The position numbers were made by a program, and so were the translations under genes. From NCBI GenBank assembly GCA_016188675.1, contig JACPHJ010000065.1, forward strand, positions 1 to 64,000: DNA of 64,000 nt, in the 5' to 3' direction. This document shows positions 29,344 to 47,766 of this stretch, piece after piece (the first letter of the stretch is position 1; each line of letters begins with the position of its first letter). A model generated the notes under the pieces. That model did no database searches and was not told the DNA's origin. It worked only from the letters and a program-made list of their open reading frames with translations. The stretch comes from Planctomycetota bacterium (GTDB taxonomy: Bacteria > Planctomycetota > Brocadiia > Brocadiales > Brocadiaceae).

Positions 29344-29712
29344 CTATTTCCTGCTTTCAAACCGCATTGTTATCTCGCTCAAAAGCCTTTCTTTGTTAAA
29401 CGGTTTTTCCAAAAATGAGACGTTTCCCAATGCCTGGAAACATCGGTACGTCTTTTCGTCTAATGCCGAGGCCATAATCACAGGCACTGTCTTGTATCTG
29501 TTGTCCCGTCTCAACAGAGCGAAAAATCTGTCACCCGTTATACCATCCATCAAAATGTCTAGTATTACCAGGTCATATATTTTCTCTTTTATCTTTTTGG
29601 TTCCTTCTTCTGCATTCGAAACAAGTGTGACCGTAAATGGTTCTCCTTGTAACATGTCCTTGTAAAATTCCTGCATCTCCAGATCATCTTCTACAATTAA
29701 CAATTCTTTCAT
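29344..29712 (-). CDS. Single-domain response regulator
   Basis: A 122-residue CheY-like receiver without output domain. Acidic pocket VEDD (about residues 7-10), phospho-accepting Asp in ILDILMDG (about 52) and conserved Lys in EKPF (about 104) are all present. It follows a soluble sensor kinase on the same strand with a 23-base gap, so it most likely receives phosphate from it and acts by protein contact or as a relay. Confidence 0.92.
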   Translation of the reverse strand: MKELLIVEDDLEMQEFYKDMLQGEPFTVTLVSNAEEGTKKIKEKIYDLVILDILMDGITGDRFFALLRRDNRYKTVPVIMASALDEKTYRCFQALGNVSFLEKPFNKERLLSEITMRFESRK

Positions 29713-29735
29713 TTTCTATCGCTCCCATGAAAAGA

Positions 29736-31334
29736 TTATTTGTGGTTTGTATTAACTTTTTGTTTGGTGTCCACAAGTATCGGCAAGGTAAATTTAAACC
29801 GGGATCCTTTTCCTTTCCCTTCGGATTCTACCCAAATCCTGCCTTTATGTTTCTGTACGATGTTCTTGCAGATGGCAAGGCCGATTCCCGACCCAAACGA
29901 CGAAGGCGTTTCTTTGAAAAACTTCTCAAATACCCGGCCTCGTGTTTCCTCATCCAATCCCCTGCCGGTGTCTTCCACTGTTACTTCTAAAACATCCGGA
30001 AGTACATTGGCCGATATGATGATTTTTCCATGTTCAGTGAACTTTGTAGCATTGTTTACCAGATGATTTATCAAATGGTATATCATGTCTCGATCTGCCT
30101 TAATAATGGGAATACCGGAAGGTAGTTGGTGTGTGAGGACGTTGTTTTTTGTGCTGGCAGAATCCTTTTGTTCATTAACAATCTGTTTGACTATATCTGC
30201 AATTGAAATATCAGATAGTTTTAATGGTTCCACTCCAGACTCTAACTTGGATATGTCGAGGATATTTTTTATGGAGTTTTTTAACCGGTTGACGTTGTTC
30301 CTGATGATTTCGTGTATTTGAGGGCCTCTTCCCAACGATACTTTATCACCTAATGTGATAGAACGCTCGAACATGTCGATAGCCATCTCTATTTTAGCGA
30401 CAGGCGTCTTCAGTTCATGTGTAACATCACGGATCAGATTGTCTTTTAATTCGTCCAATTTTTTCCTTTCTGTAATGTCGCGGCAGAATCCCTCTATACC
30501 AATGATATCATTATCCTGCTTGATCGGAAGCACCTCAAGAGACAGCCATACAACATGGCCTTGTTTGTGAACAACCCTGAACTCGAAATCCATTAAAATG
30601 CTATTTTGGCCATTGAGTATTTGTAAAATCTCGCGTTGTACCCTCTCACGATCCTCCTCATGGCACAGTGAAAGTCCATAGCCCCGGTTATCGCAAAATT
30701 GATTTGCCGGGTAGCCGGTGATCTTTTCAACGGATGGACTCATCAAGAGGAATTCTCCCTCCTTTGTACATTCAAAGATAATATCCGGTGAACTCTCAAT
30801 GACAGTCCTATATTTTTCTTCTGCCTCTTTAATTCCGTTAAACAACCGAGTATTTTCGATTGCCATAGCTAATTGAGGGGCGATTTGCGAGAAAAAAGCA
30901 ATATGTTTTTTTGAGTAATAGTCCTTTCGTTTACTCCCAAAATTTACACTGCCAATTACATGTCCCTTATGCTCAAGTGGGTATCCCAATCTTGAGTGAA
31001 TCCCTTCTTTAAATAAGACTTTATCAGTATTAAAACGGCCTAACGACGTGTCTTCCACGATCACTGGCTGACGAAATTGAACCACCCTTTTCATCAAACT
31101 TCCTTCCATGGGATACAGGATGCCTTCTTTTAGTTCTGTATATTCATAGTCCTTTGACAGCACGAAGGTCTCGTACAAGTTATTATCTTCGGTAATAAGA
31201 GTAACACTTAGGCGATCGAAATCAATAACTTTCAAAAGTTCCTTGCTCATCGTCTGGTAAACTTCCCGGATATCCAGACTCGAAAAGATAATTCGGTTGA
31301 TATTGAGTATAATCTCTTTTTTGTTAGTAAACAT
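29736..31334 (-). CDS. Soluble sensor histidine kinase (GAF-PAS-HisKA-HATPase)
   Basis: A 532-residue kinase without membrane segments. The N-terminal GAF domain (about 10-160) closely resembles the GAF of the 1194-residue kinase at 7878: both carry LDIREV, then KVIDFDRxSVTL, then LFKEGI/LYKEGI and GSVNFGS. A PAS domain with PAC follows (170-290), then HisKA with the phospho-accepting His in DVTHELKTPVAK (about 305). HATPase motifs are NHLVNNATKF, DTGRGLDEE and GSGIGLAICKN. The signal is cytoplasmic and unknown. The single-domain receiver immediately downstream is the likely partner. Confidence 0.92.
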   Translation of the reverse strand: MFTNKKEIILNINRIIFSSLDIREVYQTMSKELLKVIDFDRLSVTLITEDNNLYETFVLSKDYEYTELKEGILYPMEGSLMKRVVQFRQPVIVEDTSLGRFNTDKVLFKEGIHSRLGYPLEHKGHVIGSVNFGSKRKDYYSKKHIAFFSQIAPQLAMAIENTRLFNGIKEAEEKYRTVIESSPDIIFECTKEGEFLLMSPSVEKITGYPANQFCDNRGYGLSLCHEEDRERVQREILQILNGQNSILMDFEFRVVHKQGHVVWLSLEVLPIKQDNDIIGIEGFCRDITERKKLDELKDNLIRDVTHELKTPVAKIEMAIDMFERSITLGDKVSLGRGPQIHEIIRNNVNRLKNSIKNILDISKLESGVEPLKLSDISIADIVKQIVNEQKDSASTKNNVLTHQLPSGIPIIKADRDMIYHLINHLVNNATKFTEHGKIIISANVLPDVLEVTVEDTGRGLDEETRGRVFEKFFKETPSSFGSGIGLAICKNIVQKHKGRIWVESEGKGKGSRFKFTLPILVDTKQKVNTNHK

Positions 31335-31335
31335 T

Positions 31336-31435
31336 TAAGAAATTTACGATTTGCGAATTATGATTTTAGACTTCGTCGTGAGCGCTCAGTCGAACGATTG
31401 AAAATAATCGTAATTCATAAATCTGAAATCTAAAA
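31336..31435. repeat. Imperfect palindromic repeat, ACGATTTRCGAATT family
   Basis: ATTTACGATTTGCGAATTAT on the left faces ATAATCGTAATTCATAAAT on the right, with a GC-richer middle (GTCGTGAGCGCTCAGTCGAACG). It is related to the elements at 26531 and 59661 and is non-coding. Confidence 0.5.
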
Positions 31436-31486
31436 TAGTAACTTATTTGCGTTTGATTCTTACGTGTCTAAGCTAAGACGGCGCTT

Positions 31487-32023
31487 TTATTTCACGAGTT
31501 CCTGTAAGGCCTTATCGTAAGCCTGATACGCCTTTTGGCCAAAGAGGACAAAACGTACCAGTTCGATGTCGGCATGGGTTTTTAAATACTGTGTCACTGT
31601 TTTTAGAGCCACCGTGGCTGCCTCGTCAAGTGGATACCCATAAGCGCCGGTACTGATGGACGGAAATGAAATACTTTTAAGTTTGTATTGGGAGGCAAGT
31701 TTTAGGCTGTTTTTGTATGCATTAGCCAACAGTTCCGCCTCGCGCCTGTTACCGCCGGAGTAAACGGGACCCACCGTATGAATTACGTATTTGGCTTTTA
31801 GGTTTCCTCCTGTAGTAATTCGTGCCTCTCCTGTTGGACACCCACCCAGCTTCCTGCAATCTTCCAATATTTTTGGGCCTCCTGCTCTATGGATTGCCCC
31901 GTCCACACCGCCGCCTCCCAAAAGACTGGAGTTAGCAGCATTGACAATAGCATCCGTTTCCTGCTCTGTAATATCGCCCTCGATAAGTTCCAGAACAGCT
32001 TTGTTAATGTTAACTTTTATCAT
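31487..32023 (-). CDS. Macrodomain ADP-ribose hydrolase (YmdB/O-acetyl-ADP-ribose deacetylase type)
   Basis: A 178-residue single macrodomain. The binding loops are clear: [22 protein letters not shown] (residues about 25-46), CPTGEARIT and [10 protein letters not shown], then [17 protein letters not shown] (about 125). These match MacroD/YmdB proteins, which remove ADP-ribose from proteins or deacetylate O-acetyl-ADP-ribose. It is cytoplasmic and has a normal length. It stands alone between repeat-rich intergenic regions. Confidence 0.93.
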
Positions 32024-33290: not shown

Positions 33291-35330
33291 CTATTTTATT
33301 TGGGGTTTTATGGGCAACGTAAAGGTGAAGGTGCTTCCTTTTCCGTATTCACTTATTACCCATATCTTGCCTCCGTGCAATTCGATCAGACGTTTTGTGA
33401 GCGTTAAGCCAAGTCCCGTCCCCTCATAACGGCGTGCATATGAGGCATCTAATTGACGAAACGCCTCAAAAATTTTATCCATATCTTCGGATTTGATGCC
33501 GATGCCCGTGTCACTCACGGCAACCTGGATGTGCTGATTCATGAGGCTTGCATTGATGGCAACCTTGCCATTTTCGGACGTAAACTTGACGGCATTGGAT
33601 AACAGATTAAACATGATTTGTTTAAACTTTACTTTGTCTACTGTTATAGAGAGGACGTTATCATTGATATGAGTATGTATGCGAATACCTTTCTTATTGG
33701 AAAACCCAATGATCGTATTTAGCACCTCATTGACGGCCTCTTTTACGGGAAACTCTTCGTAGTGAAGTTCTAATTTTCCGGCCTCAATCTTTGATAGATC
33801 CAGGATGCTGTTAATCATATTGAGCAGGTGTTGGCCGCTGCCGTGAATATCGCTCAGGTATTCTTTTTGTTCGGTGCTGAGCGTCCCGACGACCTCGTCC
33901 TTTAAAACCTCTGCGAAACCAATGATGGAATTCAGCGGGGTGCGAAGCTCATGTGACATAGTTGCCAAAAATTCTGATTTGAGTCTGTTAGCCTTCTCGA
34001 GCGCAATGTTTGCCTTCTGCAGTTCGTCTGTTCTTTCTGCAACCTTTTTTTCGAGCAGCACGTTCAGGTCTTGAAGTCTTGAAATACGGATAAAATCAAG
34101 CCAGGAAGCCACGTCTTCGTATTCGGCGACATTGAGTCCCTTTCTTTCTTCTTCCGGACGTACCCTTATCCCGAGTGTCTTTTTAAGGCACCAGAAGAAG
34201 AGCATCCCCAGCCCAAACGACCATACAAAGGCTGTCCCGACGCCTACCGCCTGTATGCCCAGTTGATGAATGCGGCTGCCGCTTTCAACCAGGAGGGTTG
34301 ATTTTTCAGCAAAAGGCGCAACGCAGAGGGTGCCTATAACACCGCCTACTCCATGAACTGCAACGGCAGCAACCGGGTCATCAACCTTTAATATCTTTTC
34401 AATGAAGTCCTGGGCCAGGATTGCAACGACACCGGTAATAAGGCCGATATAAACGGCCCCATCGGGATTTACCCTGCTTGAACCGGCAGTTATCGCTACA
34501 AGGCCAGCCAGCACCGCCGTAAAAAGTTTCCCGGCGTCGAGTCTCTTTTCAGTCGAATAATTAAATATTAGCGCTGAAACTCCGGCAGCGGCTGCTGCAA
34601 GGTTTGTGTTTACAATGACGAGGCCAATATCCGCACTGGCACGCAAAAGACTTCCGCCATTAAAGCCAAACCAGCCAAACCAGAGGAAAAACGTGCCAAG
34701 GGTGGCTAACGGGACGTTATGCAATCCCATAGGATTTGAAGAACCGTCAGGATTGTACTTGCCAATCCTTGGACCCAAAACCAATGCCCCGGCCAGTGCA
34801 AACCATCCACCAATGGAATGTACCACCGTAGAACCTGCAAAGTCAATGAATCCCAGTCTTCCTAACCAGCCGGACTGATCCGGATAAAAAAGATTTCCCC
34901 ATGCCCAATGACCGAAAATCGGGTAGATAACAGACACGGTAAGTGCGGGGCCTATAATGTTGGGAATAAAACTTGAGCGTTCAGCTATAGCTCCTGACAA
35001 TATGGTGGAGGCTGTAGCGGCAAAGACCAGTTGATAAAAGAAAAAGGTATAAGATAGACTGCTGGTATGTGTTGCTACGCTATGGGCAAAGAAGTGGTTT
35101 GTGCCAATCCAGCCCATATAACTTGCGCCAAACATCAGCCCAAATCCTACGACGTAAAACGCCAGAGAGGATACAAGGAATTCCACCAGGTTTCTGATAG
35201 AAATGCTAATAGCATTTTTTGACTGAGAAAAGCCTGCTTCGTATGAGGTAAAACCAAGTTGCATGAAAAATACCATACAGGCTGCGATCATAACCCAGAC
35301 GTGATTTATGTTTATTTGTATGTTTTCCAT
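33291..35330 (-). CDS. Ammonium sensor: Amt domain fused to histidine kinase
   Basis: A 679-residue fusion. Residues about 1-385 are a complete Amt channel fold with eleven membrane segments: the gate region FAATASTI, pore histidines in TVVHSIGG (about 172) and VAVHGVGG (about 325), and [10 protein letters not shown] coiled linker (about 405-440, [17 protein letters not shown]) leads to HisKA with the phospho-accepting His in [11 protein letters not shown] (about 453). HATPase motifs are [19 protein letters not shown] and [11 protein letters not shown]. This is the architecture of Ks-Amt5 of Kuenenia stuttgartiensis, described as an ammonium sensor kinase. No response regulator is adjacent; a membrane protein gene precedes it by 17 bases on the same strand. 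Confidence 0.95.
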
Positions 35331-35347
35331 AACCTATTTCCAGAATT

Positions 35348-36415
35348 TCAATGTTTTGTAATGGGCATATTGACTTCAGTTGTATAAAGAACCTCGTAGA
35401 CGTGTTTAAACCATGATGAATGAGAATCGAATATATTTTTAATTATGGTATTGCGGCTTGCTATTCTTGTTTCTATGTTAGACAAGTCCAGGTTTGATGT
35501 CTTCCACAATTTCAAAAAATGGTCTTCGAGAATCTCAAAAGGTTTCCCCTTTGGCTGCATCTGGAATTTAAACACCGGCATATTGTCTCCGATACATAAA
35601 CTCACTGGATGTTTGCTCGCGCTTCGTCCAAAGGTATATGGTTGAAAATGGGTTGTGTTGTCTACGACCATCATCCAGCAGGTTGGGGTATGGGTATAAA
35701 ATCTGACTGCAGTCCCGACATTCGGATAGCTTCGGAGTCTGTCACATGCATGGGTAAAATCGCTGTATAGTCTCTGATGAAAAAAGGGCTCTGTAAATTG
35801 AGTATTTGACCTGTCGGTATTTATAAGCTTTGCAGCCTCATGGGCAGTGCTTTCGAGTAACGTTCTAAAGACTGCCGGATCCTGAAGTGCATCAAGGAGG
35901 AGTATTTTGACGTCTAGCCCGCTTGTTATCTTTTCGTTAAGCGTGGGAAGTAATTCATCGAGATGGACATTTTCGGAGAGTGTGATACCCAGAAGCCATA
36001 CCCTTTTTTCGGCATTTTCTATAGCATCATATATGTCACCCTTAACGTCCTTACGGGAGCAGTAGATATTCGTTAGTCCGCAGTTTGATGCAGTCCCGAT
36101 AAGTTGGTTGGTTGTTTGCAAAGATTTTTCAAGAGAACTTCTGTTATCATCAATTAGCTGGTGCGTAGCCTGAAGGGTTTCTTTTAATATATTTCTTATG
36201 TGTCCAAAGATTTCCCACCAGAGATATGCATATTCCATGATATGAACGCACATGATAGCGCTGAAGACGAGTAGTAAATGCTTGACTATTTCTGGTGTAT
36301 TATGCCAGTAGCGCGGCAATAGAATATTCAGTGATACTGCAGAAATGAAAAACAAGCACGCAATTAACATCCTGGCAAATGGTCTTGGTCTTTCACTCAC
36401 AATCGTTACCTCCAA
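35348..36415 (-). CDS. Membrane protein with cytosolic PLD-like domain, upstream of the Amt kinase
   Basis: A 355-residue protein with two N-terminal membrane segments (about 15-32 and 45-68), a helical coiled stretch with repeated LxxTxQLI units (about 75-110) and a cytosolic alpha/beta domain. The domain has AENAEKRVWLLGITLSEN, VKILLLDALQDP and WMMVVDNTTHFQPYTFGRS, resembling phospholipase D-like folds of the DUF5919 kind but without a clear HKD motif. It is the first gene of a two-gene operon with the Amt-histidine kinase (17-base gap), so it may modulate or read out ammonium signalling. No function is known. Confidence 0.7.
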   Translation of the reverse strand: MEVTIVSERPRPFARMLIACLFFISAVSLNILLPRYWHNTPEIVKHLLLVFSAIMCVHIMEYAYLWWEIFGHIRNILKETLQATHQLIDDNRSSLEKSLQTTNQLIGTASNCGLTNIYCSRKDVKGDIYDAIENAEKRVWLLGITLSENVHLDELLPTLNEKITSGLDVKILLLDALQDPAVFRTLLESTAHEAAKLINTDRSNTQFTEPFFHQRLYSDFTHACDRLRSYPNVGTAVRFYTHTPTCWMMVVDNTTHFQPYTFGRSASKHPVSLCIGDNMPVFKFQMQPKGKPFEILEDHFLKLWKTSNLDLSNIETRIASRNTIIKNIFDSHSSWFKHVYEVLYTTEVNMPITKH

Positions 36416-43530: not shown

Positions 43531-45087
43531 TTATGCCAATATGACCAGATGGTGAGTCCCTATCCATGAGTGAAGAAATTCCAAAGCTATTCATCTCTTA
43601 TAGCTGGAGCACCCCCGACCACGAACAATGGGTCATTAAACTCGCGACAGAGTTGCGTGAGAGCGGCATCGACGTCATTCTCGACAAGTGGGATCTGAAG
43701 GAAGGACACGATGCACATGCCTTTATGGAAAAGATGGTCGCTGACTCTGGGATCAAAAAGGTTGTCATAGTCTGTGATCGGATTTATGCAGAAAAGGCAA
43801 ATAGCCGGAGCGGAGGAGTCGGAACGGAAACCCAGATTATTTCCCCAGAGGTTTATGACAAACAGGATCAAAGCAAGTTTGTTGCGATACTTTCTGAACG
43901 GGACGACCATGGGAAGCCGTACCTACCGATATATTACAAATCCAGAATATATATCGATCTTAGCGACAACGACCTTTATGCGAATAACTTTGAGCAGCTT
44001 CTACGTTGGGTTTATGACAAACCTCTTTACATAAAACCGGAAATTGGCAAGAAGCCTGTATTCCTATCAGAATCAGAAACGACAAGTCTCGGAACAGCAC
44101 CAAAGTTTCGACGAGCGCTCGATGCCATACGAAACAATAAAGACTACGCCAAAGGAGCGCTCAGTGAGTACTTCGACACGTTTGTCGAACATCTAGAACG
44201 GTTCCGCATTGGAAATGAGGAAGGTGAATTCGATGACAAGGTGGTACGAAGCATTGAGGAATTTCTTCCTTTCCGAAACGAAGCGGTGGAGATTTTTCTC
44301 GCTCTCGCTCAGTACAGAAATACAGTCGAAACCCACCAATTAGTACATCGATTCTTTGAACTACTTATTCCGTACATGTATCGGCCCGAGCACGTTTCGT
44401 CTTGGAAAGACTGGGATTTCGACAACTTCTTCTACATCGTTCACGAACTCTTTATTTACGCAATTGCTAGCTTTCTCAAGTATGAGTGTTTTGACGCGGT
44501 TTCTTACCTGGTCCGGCATCGCTACTACTTCGAAAAGGGCTCAAGCGAAGATAGGATGATCTCGTTTGCGGATATCCGGCATTACATGCGCTCATTTGAG
44601 CATAGAAATAACCGTCTTCAGTTGCGACGCATATCCTTGAGAGCCGATTTGCTTGAACAAAGATCAAGAACATCCGGCCTCGCTTTTCTTTTGTTGATGC
44701 AGGCCGATTTCGTATTGTTCATGCGCGACTGTATCGACAGTGTGCGCAACAATACTTCGCAAAGTTGGTCGCCAGAAACATTGCTTTACTTAGAAAGACA
44801 TGGAGGATCGTTCGAGATCTTTGCAAGGGCAGAATCGAAGGAATACTTCAACCGGATTAAATGTCTCTTTGATATTTCTGCTAAAACTGATTTGGAGCCC
44901 GTCTTGAAGGCCTTTCAGGAAGAAAAGCTTCGCATTCCAAGGTGGGAATGGAGTTCGTTTAATCCAGCGGCGTTGCTAGGTTACGAGCAGCTAGCGACTC
45001 GACCTTGAGAAGCGATGACAATGGACATAACAACCGCTTTGAGAGCGACGTGTGGTGCTGACGCACCACACGCGCCTCAAGCGGGCG
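43531..45087 (+). mobile_element. Lone integron-type gene cassette carrying a SEFIR gene
   Basis: A 1557-base unit bounded by G^TT sites at both ends (G at 43530 before TTATGCC, and G at 45087 before TTACC). It contains one gene in the same orientation as an attC-like site at its 3' end, starting 35 bases after the left boundary, as is usual in cassettes. The R'' arm of the attC (GACATAAC) matches the complement of GTTATGCC at the left boundary in seven of eight positions; these are the arms that would pair in the excised circle. The right edge lies seven bases before the stop codon of the next gene on the other strand, so insertion was intergenic. No integrase or further cassette is seen. 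Confidence 0.78.
43566..45008 (+). CDS. SEFIR-domain protein, candidate antiviral defence effector
   Basis: A 480-residue cytosolic protein. Residues about 5-150 form a SEFIR domain, a relative of TIR: box 1 LFISYSW, box 2 SGIDVILDKWDL, then VVIVCDRIYAEKAN and GGVGTETQIISPEVY, in which the Glu is a candidate catalytic residue by analogy with TIR NAD-cleaving enzymes. The rest (about 170-480) is alpha-helical without recognised domain and may be the sensing part. Single-gene bacterial SEFIR proteins (bSEFIR) have been reported as antiphage systems. Base composition appears more GC-rich than the neighbours, and the gene is the only content of an integron-like cassette, both signs of transfer. 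Its defence role is inferred. Confidence 0.82.
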   Translation: MSEEIPKLFISYSWSTPDHEQWVIKLATELRESGIDVILDKWDLKEGHDAHAFMEKMVADSGIKKVVIVCDRIYAEKANSRSGGVGTETQIISPEVYDKQDQSKFVAILSERDDHGKPYLPIYYKSRIYIDLSDNDLYANNFEQLLRWVYDKPLYIKPEIGKKPVFLSESETTSLGTAPKFRRALDAIRNNKDYAKGALSEYFDTFVEHLERFRIGNEEGEFDDKVVRSIEEFLPFRNEAVEIFLALAQYRNTVETHQLVHRFFELLIPYMYRPEHVSSWKDWDFDNFFYIVHELFIYAIASFLKYECFDAVSYLVRHRYYFEKGSSEDRMISFADIRHYMRSFEHRNNRLQLRRISLRADLLEQRSRTSGLAFLLLMQADFVLFMRDCIDSVRNNTSQSWSPETLLYLERHGGSFEIFARAESKEYFNRIKCLFDISAKTDLEPVLKAFQEEKLRIPRWEWSSFNPAALLGYEQLATRP

Positions 45088-45093: not shown

Positions 45094-47766
45094 CTAAACA
45101 ATACGCCTCACTAACCAGCGAATAAGTATTGCGCTTGTTTTTAGCAGGAGCGATATGCTGACCGTATCCAGTAATATTTCCCGATACGCCTTTTTTCCGG
45201 AGACGCTGTCGAACAGCGCCCGCCTCAATGCAGGGTGGTCGTTTGCAATGCGGATGATGGGCGTCAGAAAACCATAATAAGCGCCCCATATAACAAACCT
45301 TCTCACGGCATTTGCGTAAGGGAGGTCTTTTATGACCTCCAGAAAACCATCCACATAAATTTCAAACGCCTCTTTGGATATGCCGGTATTCATCATGGTT
45401 TCTGCCGCTTTGATACCCATCAGGCATGCTGCATTGACACCTTTACCTTTAAACGGACGGATGAGGCCGGCTGCGTCCCCAATGGTGACGTATCGGTCGC
45501 CAAAAAGGTGTCTTGCAGGCTTTACCGGGAAACAGCCGCGATGGTAATCGAGAGAACCCAGCGATTCTTTGAAATTACCGGGGAGGATTTTCAATACGTC
45601 GGGTAATTGCAGGAATTCATCCATTGACCGGGAGGAAATTTTCGCCCCGGCAATGTTGATGGTATAGTGATCGGCCTTTGGGGTAACTGCGCCAAATTCT
45701 ATTTCTTTGAGTGACGGCAAAAAGGCATGGATGTACCCGTCGGTATTCTCCAGGTCGTGATGCTTCCCCTTGGGATGAAATTTGGTAAGGATGGTTAACA
45801 GGAATTTTGGAGACTTGTACGGTGTTTCCCTTTCAAATACTCTATGTGTGCCTTCTTCGAGGCCGAATGCGCCCACGACGACATCGGCACGGACATGTTT
45901 TGTCTCGCTGTATACTGTAACCTTGCGTTCGCCAATTTCTACGTCGGTGACCTTGCTTCGTATAATGGTTGCTCCGGCCTCTTTTGCCTTTTGCAGGAGA
46001 TAGGCGTCAAACTGAATCCTGCGCAGTGCATAGGAAATTTCCCCTTCTCCGTCAAGTTTTATGACGGAATCATCAGTATGGAGGTAATAACCGGGCACCT
46101 CCCTCTTAACAAGATGCCAGGGGAAAGGAATTCCCAGTTTATCTTCAATAATGTGTTCGATGGGCTGCGAGAGGACGCCTGCACATTCATTATGTTCGAC
46201 GCCGCCTTCGAAATCTTTATATTCGTAAATGATAACTTCGATATTGATATTTCTTTTTTTTGCGAGATTTATCAAGGCAATTGCACAACTGGCGCCTGCC
46301 GGACCTCCGCCGATTATTGCAACTGTTTGGCCGTTCTCCAGCGGCCCCAATCCCAATTCTTTCAGGAGGGTTAGCTTTTTTTCGTGTTTGCGGTGCGTGA
46401 GATTTTTAAAATTCCGATACCCTTGTTTTATAACAGCATAAAAGATGTGAGGAAACATGGTAAAATGCAAACGCGGGTTAATCGCCTTAAAAAAAATCTC
46501 TTTATAACTGGCGTTGCCGGTGACCATGTTCCACAGGATGCCGTTAATCTGTATGGACTCCCAGGCATTACGTCTTTTTATCAGATGATCAATTTGTGCA
46601 TTTACCAATTCCTTCCGGGACGTAGTGTAGTCATGGATACCAAACATGAGCGTGCCAAAGAAATTGTCCTGAGCCAGTAGTTTTAAAGCGGGTTTATAAT
46701 AGCCTTTCTTAAAAGCTCCTTCAGAGACGCCGCGTTCGAAAACAGTATGGGCGGCCAGTCGTGCCGTATCGAATGCAGATTCAATGCCATTTTTGTAAGT
46801 CCGCGAGATACTTGCATCGCCTATGATAACAAATCTGTTCGTGTAAGGATGGGCGGCATGGGAAATGGGTATTTTGGGAAAGCAGATGCAAAGATCCTTC
46901 GGCAGTGACCAGCCTTTGGGGAGGAGTTCCCGGACCTTTTGATGGTTTATAAATTCCACTAAATTGGCCTTTGTTATGTCCTCCTTTCCAACGAGTGAAA
47001 CGGTAACATAATCCCCTTTTGGTATGAATGCGGCAAATTTGATGGGTTTTATGCCCAGTGCAAATACGTAAATCGTCCGATGAAAGCGTTCCTGAATATA
47101 GGAACGACCCAGGTGTAGTTCTGCATTGCATGTCCGGACAGATTGGGGTTCACGATATCCAAATTCCTTGCCTACGATCCTCTTTATCAGGGACGTGTTA
47201 AGCCCAAATGCCCCAACGACAAGGTCGGTGGACATCTTTTTTTGTACGCCTGCCTCTTTATAAACGATGTTTACAAAATCCTCCGAATTTTTTGGCAGGT
47301 CTATTTCTTCTACCACCGCAGAAAGCACCTTTGCTCCCTGTGATGCCACATGTGTCAGTAAGAAATCGTCAAAACTGATATTGGTTGTCAACTCTGAAAA
47401 TCGGGGACCGTTTCCGCGAAAGACGGTGATAATTTTTGGCTTGTGCCCCGGTTTTGGATGGTATAACGGGATGCCGCGTTCCTGTGTCTGAAAGTAATAG
47501 CCGTCTATTTCCTGTTGGACGCGTGTTTTTGGCAGTACAATCCCCTCGCATTCCATTTTATTGGTAAGGGTTTCGGACAAGACTCCTGCACACATATTGC
47601 AGCCGACAGGCCCCTTTTGAATAAAATCCCTCCCGTCAAGGATGGTGATATCTACTTTGCGTCCATATTCACGGGCAAGTCTTAATACGAAATGGGTAAA
47701 GAAACTCCCCGATGGGCCACCACCTATTACTACAATATTTGATTTGTCTTTAAGATAAAGTTTCAT
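45094..47766 (-). CDS. Tandem geranylgeranyl-reductase-like flavoprotein (two FAD domains)
   Basis: An 890-residue protein made of two related flavoprotein halves. Half one (about 1-450) begins with the FAD motif VVIGGGPSGSFF, has GCNMCAGVLSE and the second FAD motif FVIIGDASISRTYKNGIESA. Half two (about 475-890) repeats the plan with VAIIGGGPAGAS, HNECAGVLSQP and YVTIGDAAGLIRPFKGKGVN, closer to classical geranylgeranyl reductases. Such enzymes reduce isoprenoid chains of lipids or quinones. Half one is paralogous to the separate protein at 51524. A fusion of two full reductases is unusual. It overlaps the upstream HD-GYP gene by 17 bases, so it is the last gene of a signalling operon. Substrate unknown; lipid or quinone saturation is a guess. 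Confidence 0.85.
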   Translation of the reverse strand: MKLYLKDKSNIVVIGGGPSGSFFTHFVLRLAREYGRKVDITILDGRDFIQKGPVGCNMCAGVLSETLTNKMECEGIVLPKTRVQQEIDGYYFQTQERGIPLYHPKPGHKPKIITVFRGNGPRFSELTTNISFDDFLLTHVASQGAKVLSAVVEEIDLPKNSEDFVNIVYKEAGVQKKMSTDLVVGAFGLNTSLIKRIVGKEFGYREPQSVRTCNAELHLGRSYIQERFHRTIYVFALGIKPIKFAAFIPKGDYVTVSLVGKEDITKANLVEFINHQKVRELLPKGWSLPKDLCICFPKIPISHAAHPYTNRFVIIGDASISRTYKNGIESAFDTARLAAHTVFERGVSEGAFKKGYYKPALKLLAQDNFFGTLMFGIHDYTTSRKELVNAQIDHLIKRRNAWESIQINGILWNMVTGNASYKEIFFKAINPRLHFTMFPHIFYAVIKQGYRNFKNLTHRKHEKKLTLLKELGLGPLENGQTVAIIGGGPAGASCAIALINLAKKRNINIEVIIYEYKDFEGGVEHNECAGVLSQPIEHIIEDKLGIPFPWHLVKREVPGYYLHTDDSVIKLDGEGEISYALRRIQFDAYLLQKAKEAGATIIRSKVTDVEIGERKVTVYSETKHVRADVVVGAFGLEEGTHRVFERETPYKSPKFLLTILTKFHPKGKHHDLENTDGYIHAFLPSLKEIEFGAVTPKADHYTINIAGAKISSRSMDEFLQLPDVLKILPGNFKESLGSLDYHRGCFPVKPARHLFGDRYVTIGDAAGLIRPFKGKGVNAACLMGIKAAETMMNTGISKEAFEIYVDGFLEVIKDLPYANAVRRFVIWGAYYGFLTPIIRIANDHPALRRALFDSVSGKKAYREILLDTVSISLLLKTSAILIRWLVRRIV

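Follow-up and report, generated by a model that had tools for sequence, protein, structure and literature searches.

A membrane-anchored PLD-like protein paired with an Amt-histidine kinase in Brocadiaceae: a possible adaptor of ammonium sensing that lacks the PilZ domain of its relatives

A single open reading frame occupies positions 35348-36415 on the minus strand of the window, the whole stretch of 64,000 nucleotides analysed in this work. It is a true gene, more than a chance frame, because its product is 57-79% identical to copies from other genera and because copies of the same genus differ at a dN/dS of 0.05-0.08. Translation probably starts at the GTG at 36400, which yields a product of 350 amino acids and agrees with the start position used for the aligned relatives. 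The TTG at 36415 is an unlikely start, since the ribosome-binding site would then fall within the gene; GGAGG or GAGGT motifs are found, in like manner, upstream of the genes of the relatives. The gene, its parts and the gene that follows it are:

36409..36413, minus strand: ribosome-binding site GGAGG, read from the sequence, which favours the start at 36400
35348..36400, minus strand: gene of a membrane protein (350 aa; two transmembrane helices, a long helix and a PLD-like region), GTG start, stop codon at 35348-35350
36311..36379, minus strand: transmembrane helix 1, residues ~8-30, from hydropathy
36218..36292, minus strand: transmembrane helix 2, residues ~37-61, from hydropathy
36086..36202, minus strand: long helical linker, residues 67-105, lying within a single helix in the low-confidence model of a relative
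35381..36085, minus strand: PLD-like region, residues 106-340, from weak sequence matches, the best on residues 125-184
35627..35683, minus strand: degenerate HKD site at residues 240-258, located by eye, with T in place of H, W in place of K and D unchanged
35348..35380, minus strand: truncated C-terminal tail, the last ten codons and the stop; the relatives are 106-137 residues longer
35331..35347, minus strand: 17-base gap between the stop of the gene and the ATG of the Amt-kinase gene at 35330
33291..35330, minus strand: Amt-histidine kinase fusion, 679 aa, an ammonium sensor of the Ks-Amt5 type (Pfam Amt, HisKA, HATPase)

The two membrane helices and the 17-base spacing had been described in the initial annotation; hydropathy bears out the former, with no helix past residue 70 of the window's protein, and the latter is exact. 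The linker that follows the helices has a dN/dS of ~0.02 against two copies of the same genus, at a dS above 1. No terminator-like site was found in the 17-base gap by a scan that itself carries little weight (2 sites in the region versus 3.3 in shuffled sequences), and the gene is likely to be cotranscribed with the Amt-kinase. Downstream of the kinase, genes for a macro-domain protein, a GAF-PAS histidine kinase and a small receiver (29344-32023, minus strand) follow in an order that at least 9 of the 37 further loci in the comparison share. Elsewhere in the window (43566-45008, plus strand) lies a gene for a protein of 480 aa with an N-terminal SEFIR/TIR domain, possibly a defence protein, which has no clustered relative in the 37 other neighbourhoods.

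The neighbouring gene encodes an Amt domain fused to HisKA and HATPase_c, and its residues 1-403 align with Ks-Amt5 (6eu6) at E 3.5e-202. It is thus of the same type as Ks-Amt5 (kuste3690/KSMBR1_3866; PMC5764959, PDB 6eu6), the sensor of Ca. Kuenenia stuttgartiensis, and its kinase domain is 66% identical to that of genome G015. The part of PMC5764959 available to us describes the downstream partner of Ks-Amt5 as "a yet to be identified RR" and mentions no partner membrane protein; the available part of PMC7709395 names the sensor KSMBR1_3866/kuste3690 and lists it as absent from the CSTR1 proteome. Literature searches on the PilZ/PLD architecture, PilZ in anammox bacteria, Amt5 and links between ammonium and c-di-GMP found nothing in print on the protein described here. 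In a deeper family (f5), two genomes have a single-domain receiver within ~20 bases after the Amt-kinase (L072:8015-8404; L071), which provides a lead to the response regulator of the sensor. We rejected this receiver as an identification of that regulator, as its best matches in the window's family come, in the 8 receiver loci examined, immediately behind a hybrid kinase (as listed neighbours in 6 of them; in L177 and L185, where an opposite ORF is listed, by coordinates only). Receivers so placed probably serve that hybrid kinase; the kinase domains of the hybrid kinase and of the Amt-kinase share 58-63% identity.

The gene was sought in 59 relatives and then in 62 genomes of the order, and was found in 26 of the 62, three times as a remnant. 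Complete genes, or genes cut by a contig end, occur in 23 genomes of the order; 18 of their sequences, the window's among them, were aligned, leaving out those of G011, G022, G027, G030 and G060. The PADLOC DrmC model matches residues 125-184 of the window's protein (E 0.0016). Three of the 18 aligned members, the window's protein not among them, match Pfam PLDc_2 when E values of up to 10 are allowed; the best match covers residues 124-192 (E 0.0019; 18.5 bits, under the Pfam cut-off of 27 bits). The NCBIfam cardiolipin synthase family (TIGR04265) also matches 3 of the 18, at best with E 0.032. The PLDc_2 and DrmC matches with positions noted fall in the first half of the PLD-like domain. When compared by profile (hhalign) with 30 PLD domains of the order, the region reached a probability of 7.7, against controls of up to 0.6, and a scan with the typed consensus found no PLD family. 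An AlphaFold model of the region alone reached a pLDDT of 37 and was kept out of the fold search. The PLD-like fold proposed in the initial annotation thus has weak sequence matches in its favour and is not confirmed by the predicted structure. Two other sub-threshold Pfam matches, to PF05240 APOBEC_C (in 3 of the 18 members; best 0.082) and to PF09404 C12orf66_like (in 6 of the 18; best 0.0072), were taken as chance, these being families that we assume to be eukaryotic; the C12orf66_like match overlaps the PLD-like match and so counts against a clean PLD assignment. Among solved structures, sequence searches gave no match for the window's protein and no credible match for the alignments; the best hit of one alignment search, a trehalose synthase (E 0.013), was discounted as a single isolated match.

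At the HKD positions, assigned in the alignment by eye, the histidine is found in none of the 18 sequences (T, I, A, S or N stands there instead), the lysine position is Trp in all 18 and the aspartate is retained in all 18, which upholds the earlier remark that a clear HKD site is absent. Neither the window's protein nor its 17 aligned relatives contain HxKx4D with a following GSxN-type segment, which we take here as the definition of the PLD enzyme motif. Because the H position is changed and the K position is Trp, with only D kept, the region is, as judged from the sequence, PLD-like at best and not a PLD enzyme. The window's protein and its relatives resemble members of the PLD superfamily (PLDc_2, DrmC of DISARM and bacterial cardiolipin synthase) in weak matches that fall in the first half of the PLD-like region, and differ from them in the missing HKD, the scores below the Pfam cut-off and the unconfirmed fold.

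Fifteen of the 18 aligned proteins are 456-487 aa long, that is, 106-137 residues longer than the window's protein, and most of the extra sequence is a PilZ domain. The AlphaFold model of a full-length relative from B. pituitae, made from a 10-row alignment, has a mean pLDDT of 45.8, its better parts being the helices, with block means of 51-69, and the PilZ part, most of which lies at 65-80 but drops to ~50 in one stretch. In VIA-align, residues 351-456 of this model fit PilZ domains, with BcsA (Z 9.2) and PA0012 with c-di-GMP (Z 9.1) at the top, followed by VCA0042 (Z 8.0) and then by YcgR, MrkH and Alg44. Rows 1-22 are PilZ-type c-di-GMP receptors, some of them presumably so by our own identification of the structures, rows 23 and 25 are complexes with the PilZ protein MapZ, and unrelated folds start at row 27 (Z 6.3); six chains have a Z of at least 8, below which VIA-align warns of common arrangements. 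A profile comparison (hhalign) with 29 of the 30 PilZ domains of the order (L112, with an internal stop, was left out) gave a probability of 80.4 (P 1.3e-5), and none of the six controls, five shuffled and one reversed, exceeded 0.6. No member reaches the Pfam PilZ cut-off of 22.5 bits, the best scoring 16.3 and the typed consensus 18.3. From one model and this profile comparison, the C-terminal domain of the relatives is predicted to adopt the PilZ beta-barrel fold.

RxxxR and [D/N]xSxxG are, as we assume, the c-di-GMP motifs of PilZ. The first is present in 14 of the 15 long relatives and both together in 11, the second motif being absent from 4; the copy of G018, from the Jettenia genus, has neither. 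The PilZ domain of the relatives looks built to read c-di-GMP and is a putative receptor of this messenger. The relatives share the predicted C-terminal fold (in the one that was modelled) and, in 11 of 15, the motifs with known PilZ receptors such as YcgR, VCA0042, PA0012, MrkH and the C-terminus of BcsA, but their PilZ domain is joined to two transmembrane helices and a PLD-like region and is encoded beside an ammonium sensor.

In the window's protein this domain is missing, as the reading frame ends before the point where the domain begins in the relatives. Three of the seven genomes of the window's genus that were searched have the gene, all three without the PilZ domain, and a profile of the relatives' PilZ has no match in these three genomes (G000 included) at E up to 1e-4. 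Between the window's copy and that of G001, dN/dS is 0.05 in the transmembrane helices, 0.08 in the PLD-like part and 0.69 in the short tail, the last from few sites. Since all three copies lack PilZ and dN/dS is low, the truncation looks genus-wide and the remaining protein is under continued purifying selection; the window's copy is what is left of a PilZ protein cut short at the C-terminus. With 6 PilZ and 27 GGDEF matches in its genome, the host has the required second-messenger machinery. The missing c-di-GMP receptor domain is the most informative fact about this protein, and one that lay beyond the sight of the initial annotation.

The window's family comprises 33 genomes (G000-G032), 18 of which carry the gene, whole or cut by a contig end. 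It lies directly upstream of the Amt-kinase on the same strand in 16 of these 18, at spacings from a 19-base overlap to 91 bases, so the pair is conserved in related genomes and the refuting condition set in the initial annotation, its absence from every related genome, does not hold. The other two are G027, where the gene is cut by the contig end, and G002, where the two genes are on different contigs and that of the gene continues for ~900 bases without the kinase. In G002 (L003, L061) the sequence ahead of the kinase opens with a short inverted repeat, which suggests an insertion or an assembly break between the two genes. In G029 (L051), counted among the 16, the Amt-kinase is broken by stops and a frame change, which may be a sequencing error, while its partner upstream is intact. 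Beyond the pair, the next conserved gene on the upstream side (208-262 aa; CBM_4_9-like, E 0.035 in the window) is the same in 11 of the 16 loci, with a small unclustered ORF intervening or overlapping in 3 of them; four loci keep the pair though the upstream neighbour differs (L045-L047 in one genus, L059 in another), and in one the contig is too short to show the neighbour. All 18 family genomes with the gene also have the kinase, while the 15 without a complete or contig-cut gene divide into 11 with and 4 without it (kinase search at E up to 1e-100), one of the four being only 58% complete. Protein distances of the partner and of the kinase correlate at r 0.91 over 91 pairs from 14 of the 16 loci, a value reached in none of 5000 permutations, though shared descent alone can give such a correlation.

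In four of the 11 family genomes with the kinase only (G007, G016, G015 and G023), debris of the gene is still found immediately ahead of the kinase. In G015 it is the PilZ part (E 2e-9; 3.6e-11 in a second search), ending 20 bases before the kinase, and in G023 about the first 20 codons, at E 0.027 and clear by eye; a match of comparable weakness in G009 (E 0.041) was left out of the count. As a control, the debris stretches were read in their reverse-complement frames, with no match at E up to 1. The seven further genomes have no counted trace of the gene, and in three of them (G004, G005 and G010) the kinase comes straight after the gene that usually lies upstream of the pair, as if after a clean deletion. 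G015 is probably K. stuttgartiensis strain MBR1, and the species in which the sensor has been studied, where the PilZ debris is all that G015 holds, has apparently lost the partner. As 11 of the 29 kinase-bearing family genomes lack an intact copy, the sensor can persist without it.

Five genomes of another family of the order, suspected to be Scalinduaceae (G041, G046, G055, G056 and G060), carry the full-length gene away from the HisKA Amt-kinase. In three of them the gene is followed on one strand by genes for a DUF2231 protein, a rubrerythrin-like protein and a receiver and then by a different fusion, an Amt-HisKA_2 kinase, which starts ~1.5 kb after the end of the gene and is 34% identical to the window's. 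No Amt-kinase was found near the gene in the other two: in G055 the same small genes follow and the second Amt-kinase is on another contig, and in G046 the gene is followed by a geranylgeranyl-reductase-like flavoprotein, a match below the family cut-off. The second Amt-kinase (E up to 1e-120) occurs without the gene in 8 of 12 genomes of this family. Elsewhere in G046 (C4, L066) an Amt-kinase 86% identical to the window's stands without a partner beside it, through either lateral transfer or assembly contamination. The window itself has an 890-aa geranylgeranyl-reductase-like flavoprotein with two such halves (45094-47766, minus strand; group members L089:9220-11025, minus, and L054:10952-12346, plus), and a relative in G014 bears a relative of this PilZ domain at the C-terminus. 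Beyond the order, relatives were found in none of 356 genomes (392 searched, 36 of them listed as in the order). The PLD-like part alone, sought in 294 of which 20 are listed as members of the order, likewise had no match in the remaining 274 at E up to 0.02.

The pairing is neither chance nor obligate. For the window's family the initial annotation, which proposed a conserved accessory gene, was largely right; the word "fixed" is too strong, because of the 11 kinase-bearing family genomes without an intact copy and the five genomes of the other family with the gene away from the kinase. Of the accessory or output role that had been suggested, the former fits, and the latter stays a suggestion.

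We tentatively favour the explanation that the protein is a membrane-anchored, non-catalytic PLD-like adaptor of the Amt-kinase sensor, which ancestrally had a c-di-GMP input that is gone here. Its two helices would fix the protein in the membrane and leave the long helix and the PLD-like domain on the cytosolic side, next to the kinase domains. The PLD-like domain, rather than being an enzyme, would offer a surface to which the kinase, the phospho-acceptor of the kinase or lipid head groups bind. Among the relatives, PilZ with bound c-di-GMP would alter the action of this surface, so that ammonium sensing and c-di-GMP would meet at one place; in the window's genus, with that input deleted, the anchored PLD-like part alone would still work with the sensor. 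Contact with the kinase, control by c-di-GMP and the direction of signalling are the steps that we infer. This adaptor reading explains why the membrane and PLD-like parts are kept though PilZ is gone. It is supported by the adjacency in 16 of 18 genomes, the pair kept beside differing neighbours, the co-occurrence with the kinase, the correlated distances, the low dN/dS, the evidence for PilZ and, in three of the five genomes of the second family, the presence of another type of Amt-kinase in one co-directional run with the gene. Against it stand the kinase-bearing family genomes without an intact copy, the two second-family genes with no Amt-kinase nearby and the 8 of 12 genomes of that family with a kinase and no gene, as well as the weak PLD assignment, the PilZ scores below the Pfam cut-off and the four long relatives without the second motif.

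A plausible, if not probable, alternative is a cell-envelope effector of c-di-GMP, the PLD-like domain of which binds lipids or an envelope machine and which is merely co-expressed with the sensor, without contact to the kinase. This is a serious rival, because in the five genomes of the other family the gene is found away from the HisKA Amt-kinase and because the flavoprotein that follows it in G046 has a relative in G014 with a related PilZ at its C-terminus; it accords less well with an adjacency that persists in the window's family despite changing neighbours in some genomes, or with another Amt-kinase in the same run in three of the five. That the gene is a passenger being lost, its adjacency an inherited synteny without function, seems unlikely to us: repeated losses (four remnants and seven kinase-bearing family genomes without a counted trace), the PilZ deletion in the window's genus and the same upstream neighbour in 11 of 16 loci all agree with it, but the truncated copies evolve at a dN/dS of 0.05-0.08 and the pair is kept in two genera with a differing upstream neighbour. 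An active phospholipase D-type enzyme with an altered motif could account for the weak matches to PLDc_2, DrmC and cardiolipin synthase, yet it is highly improbable given a histidine absent from all aligned sequences and a Trp at the lysine position in all 18.

A bolder form of the adaptor explanation, which we consider rather doubtful, is that anammox bacteria bring external ammonium sensing and c-di-GMP together in one membrane complex, in which the Amt-kinase is gated by a PLD-like, non-catalytic scaffold that carries a PilZ receptor; the window's genus would then be a natural deletion mutant, without the c-di-GMP input but with the scaffold retained, and K. stuttgartiensis a natural null. 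If this is true, the absence of the partner in the characterised species would be explained by its apparent loss, the open pathway of the prototype sensor Ks-Amt5 would gain a testable component, and ammonium would be linked to c-di-GMP, a messenger that governs biofilm formation in other bacteria.
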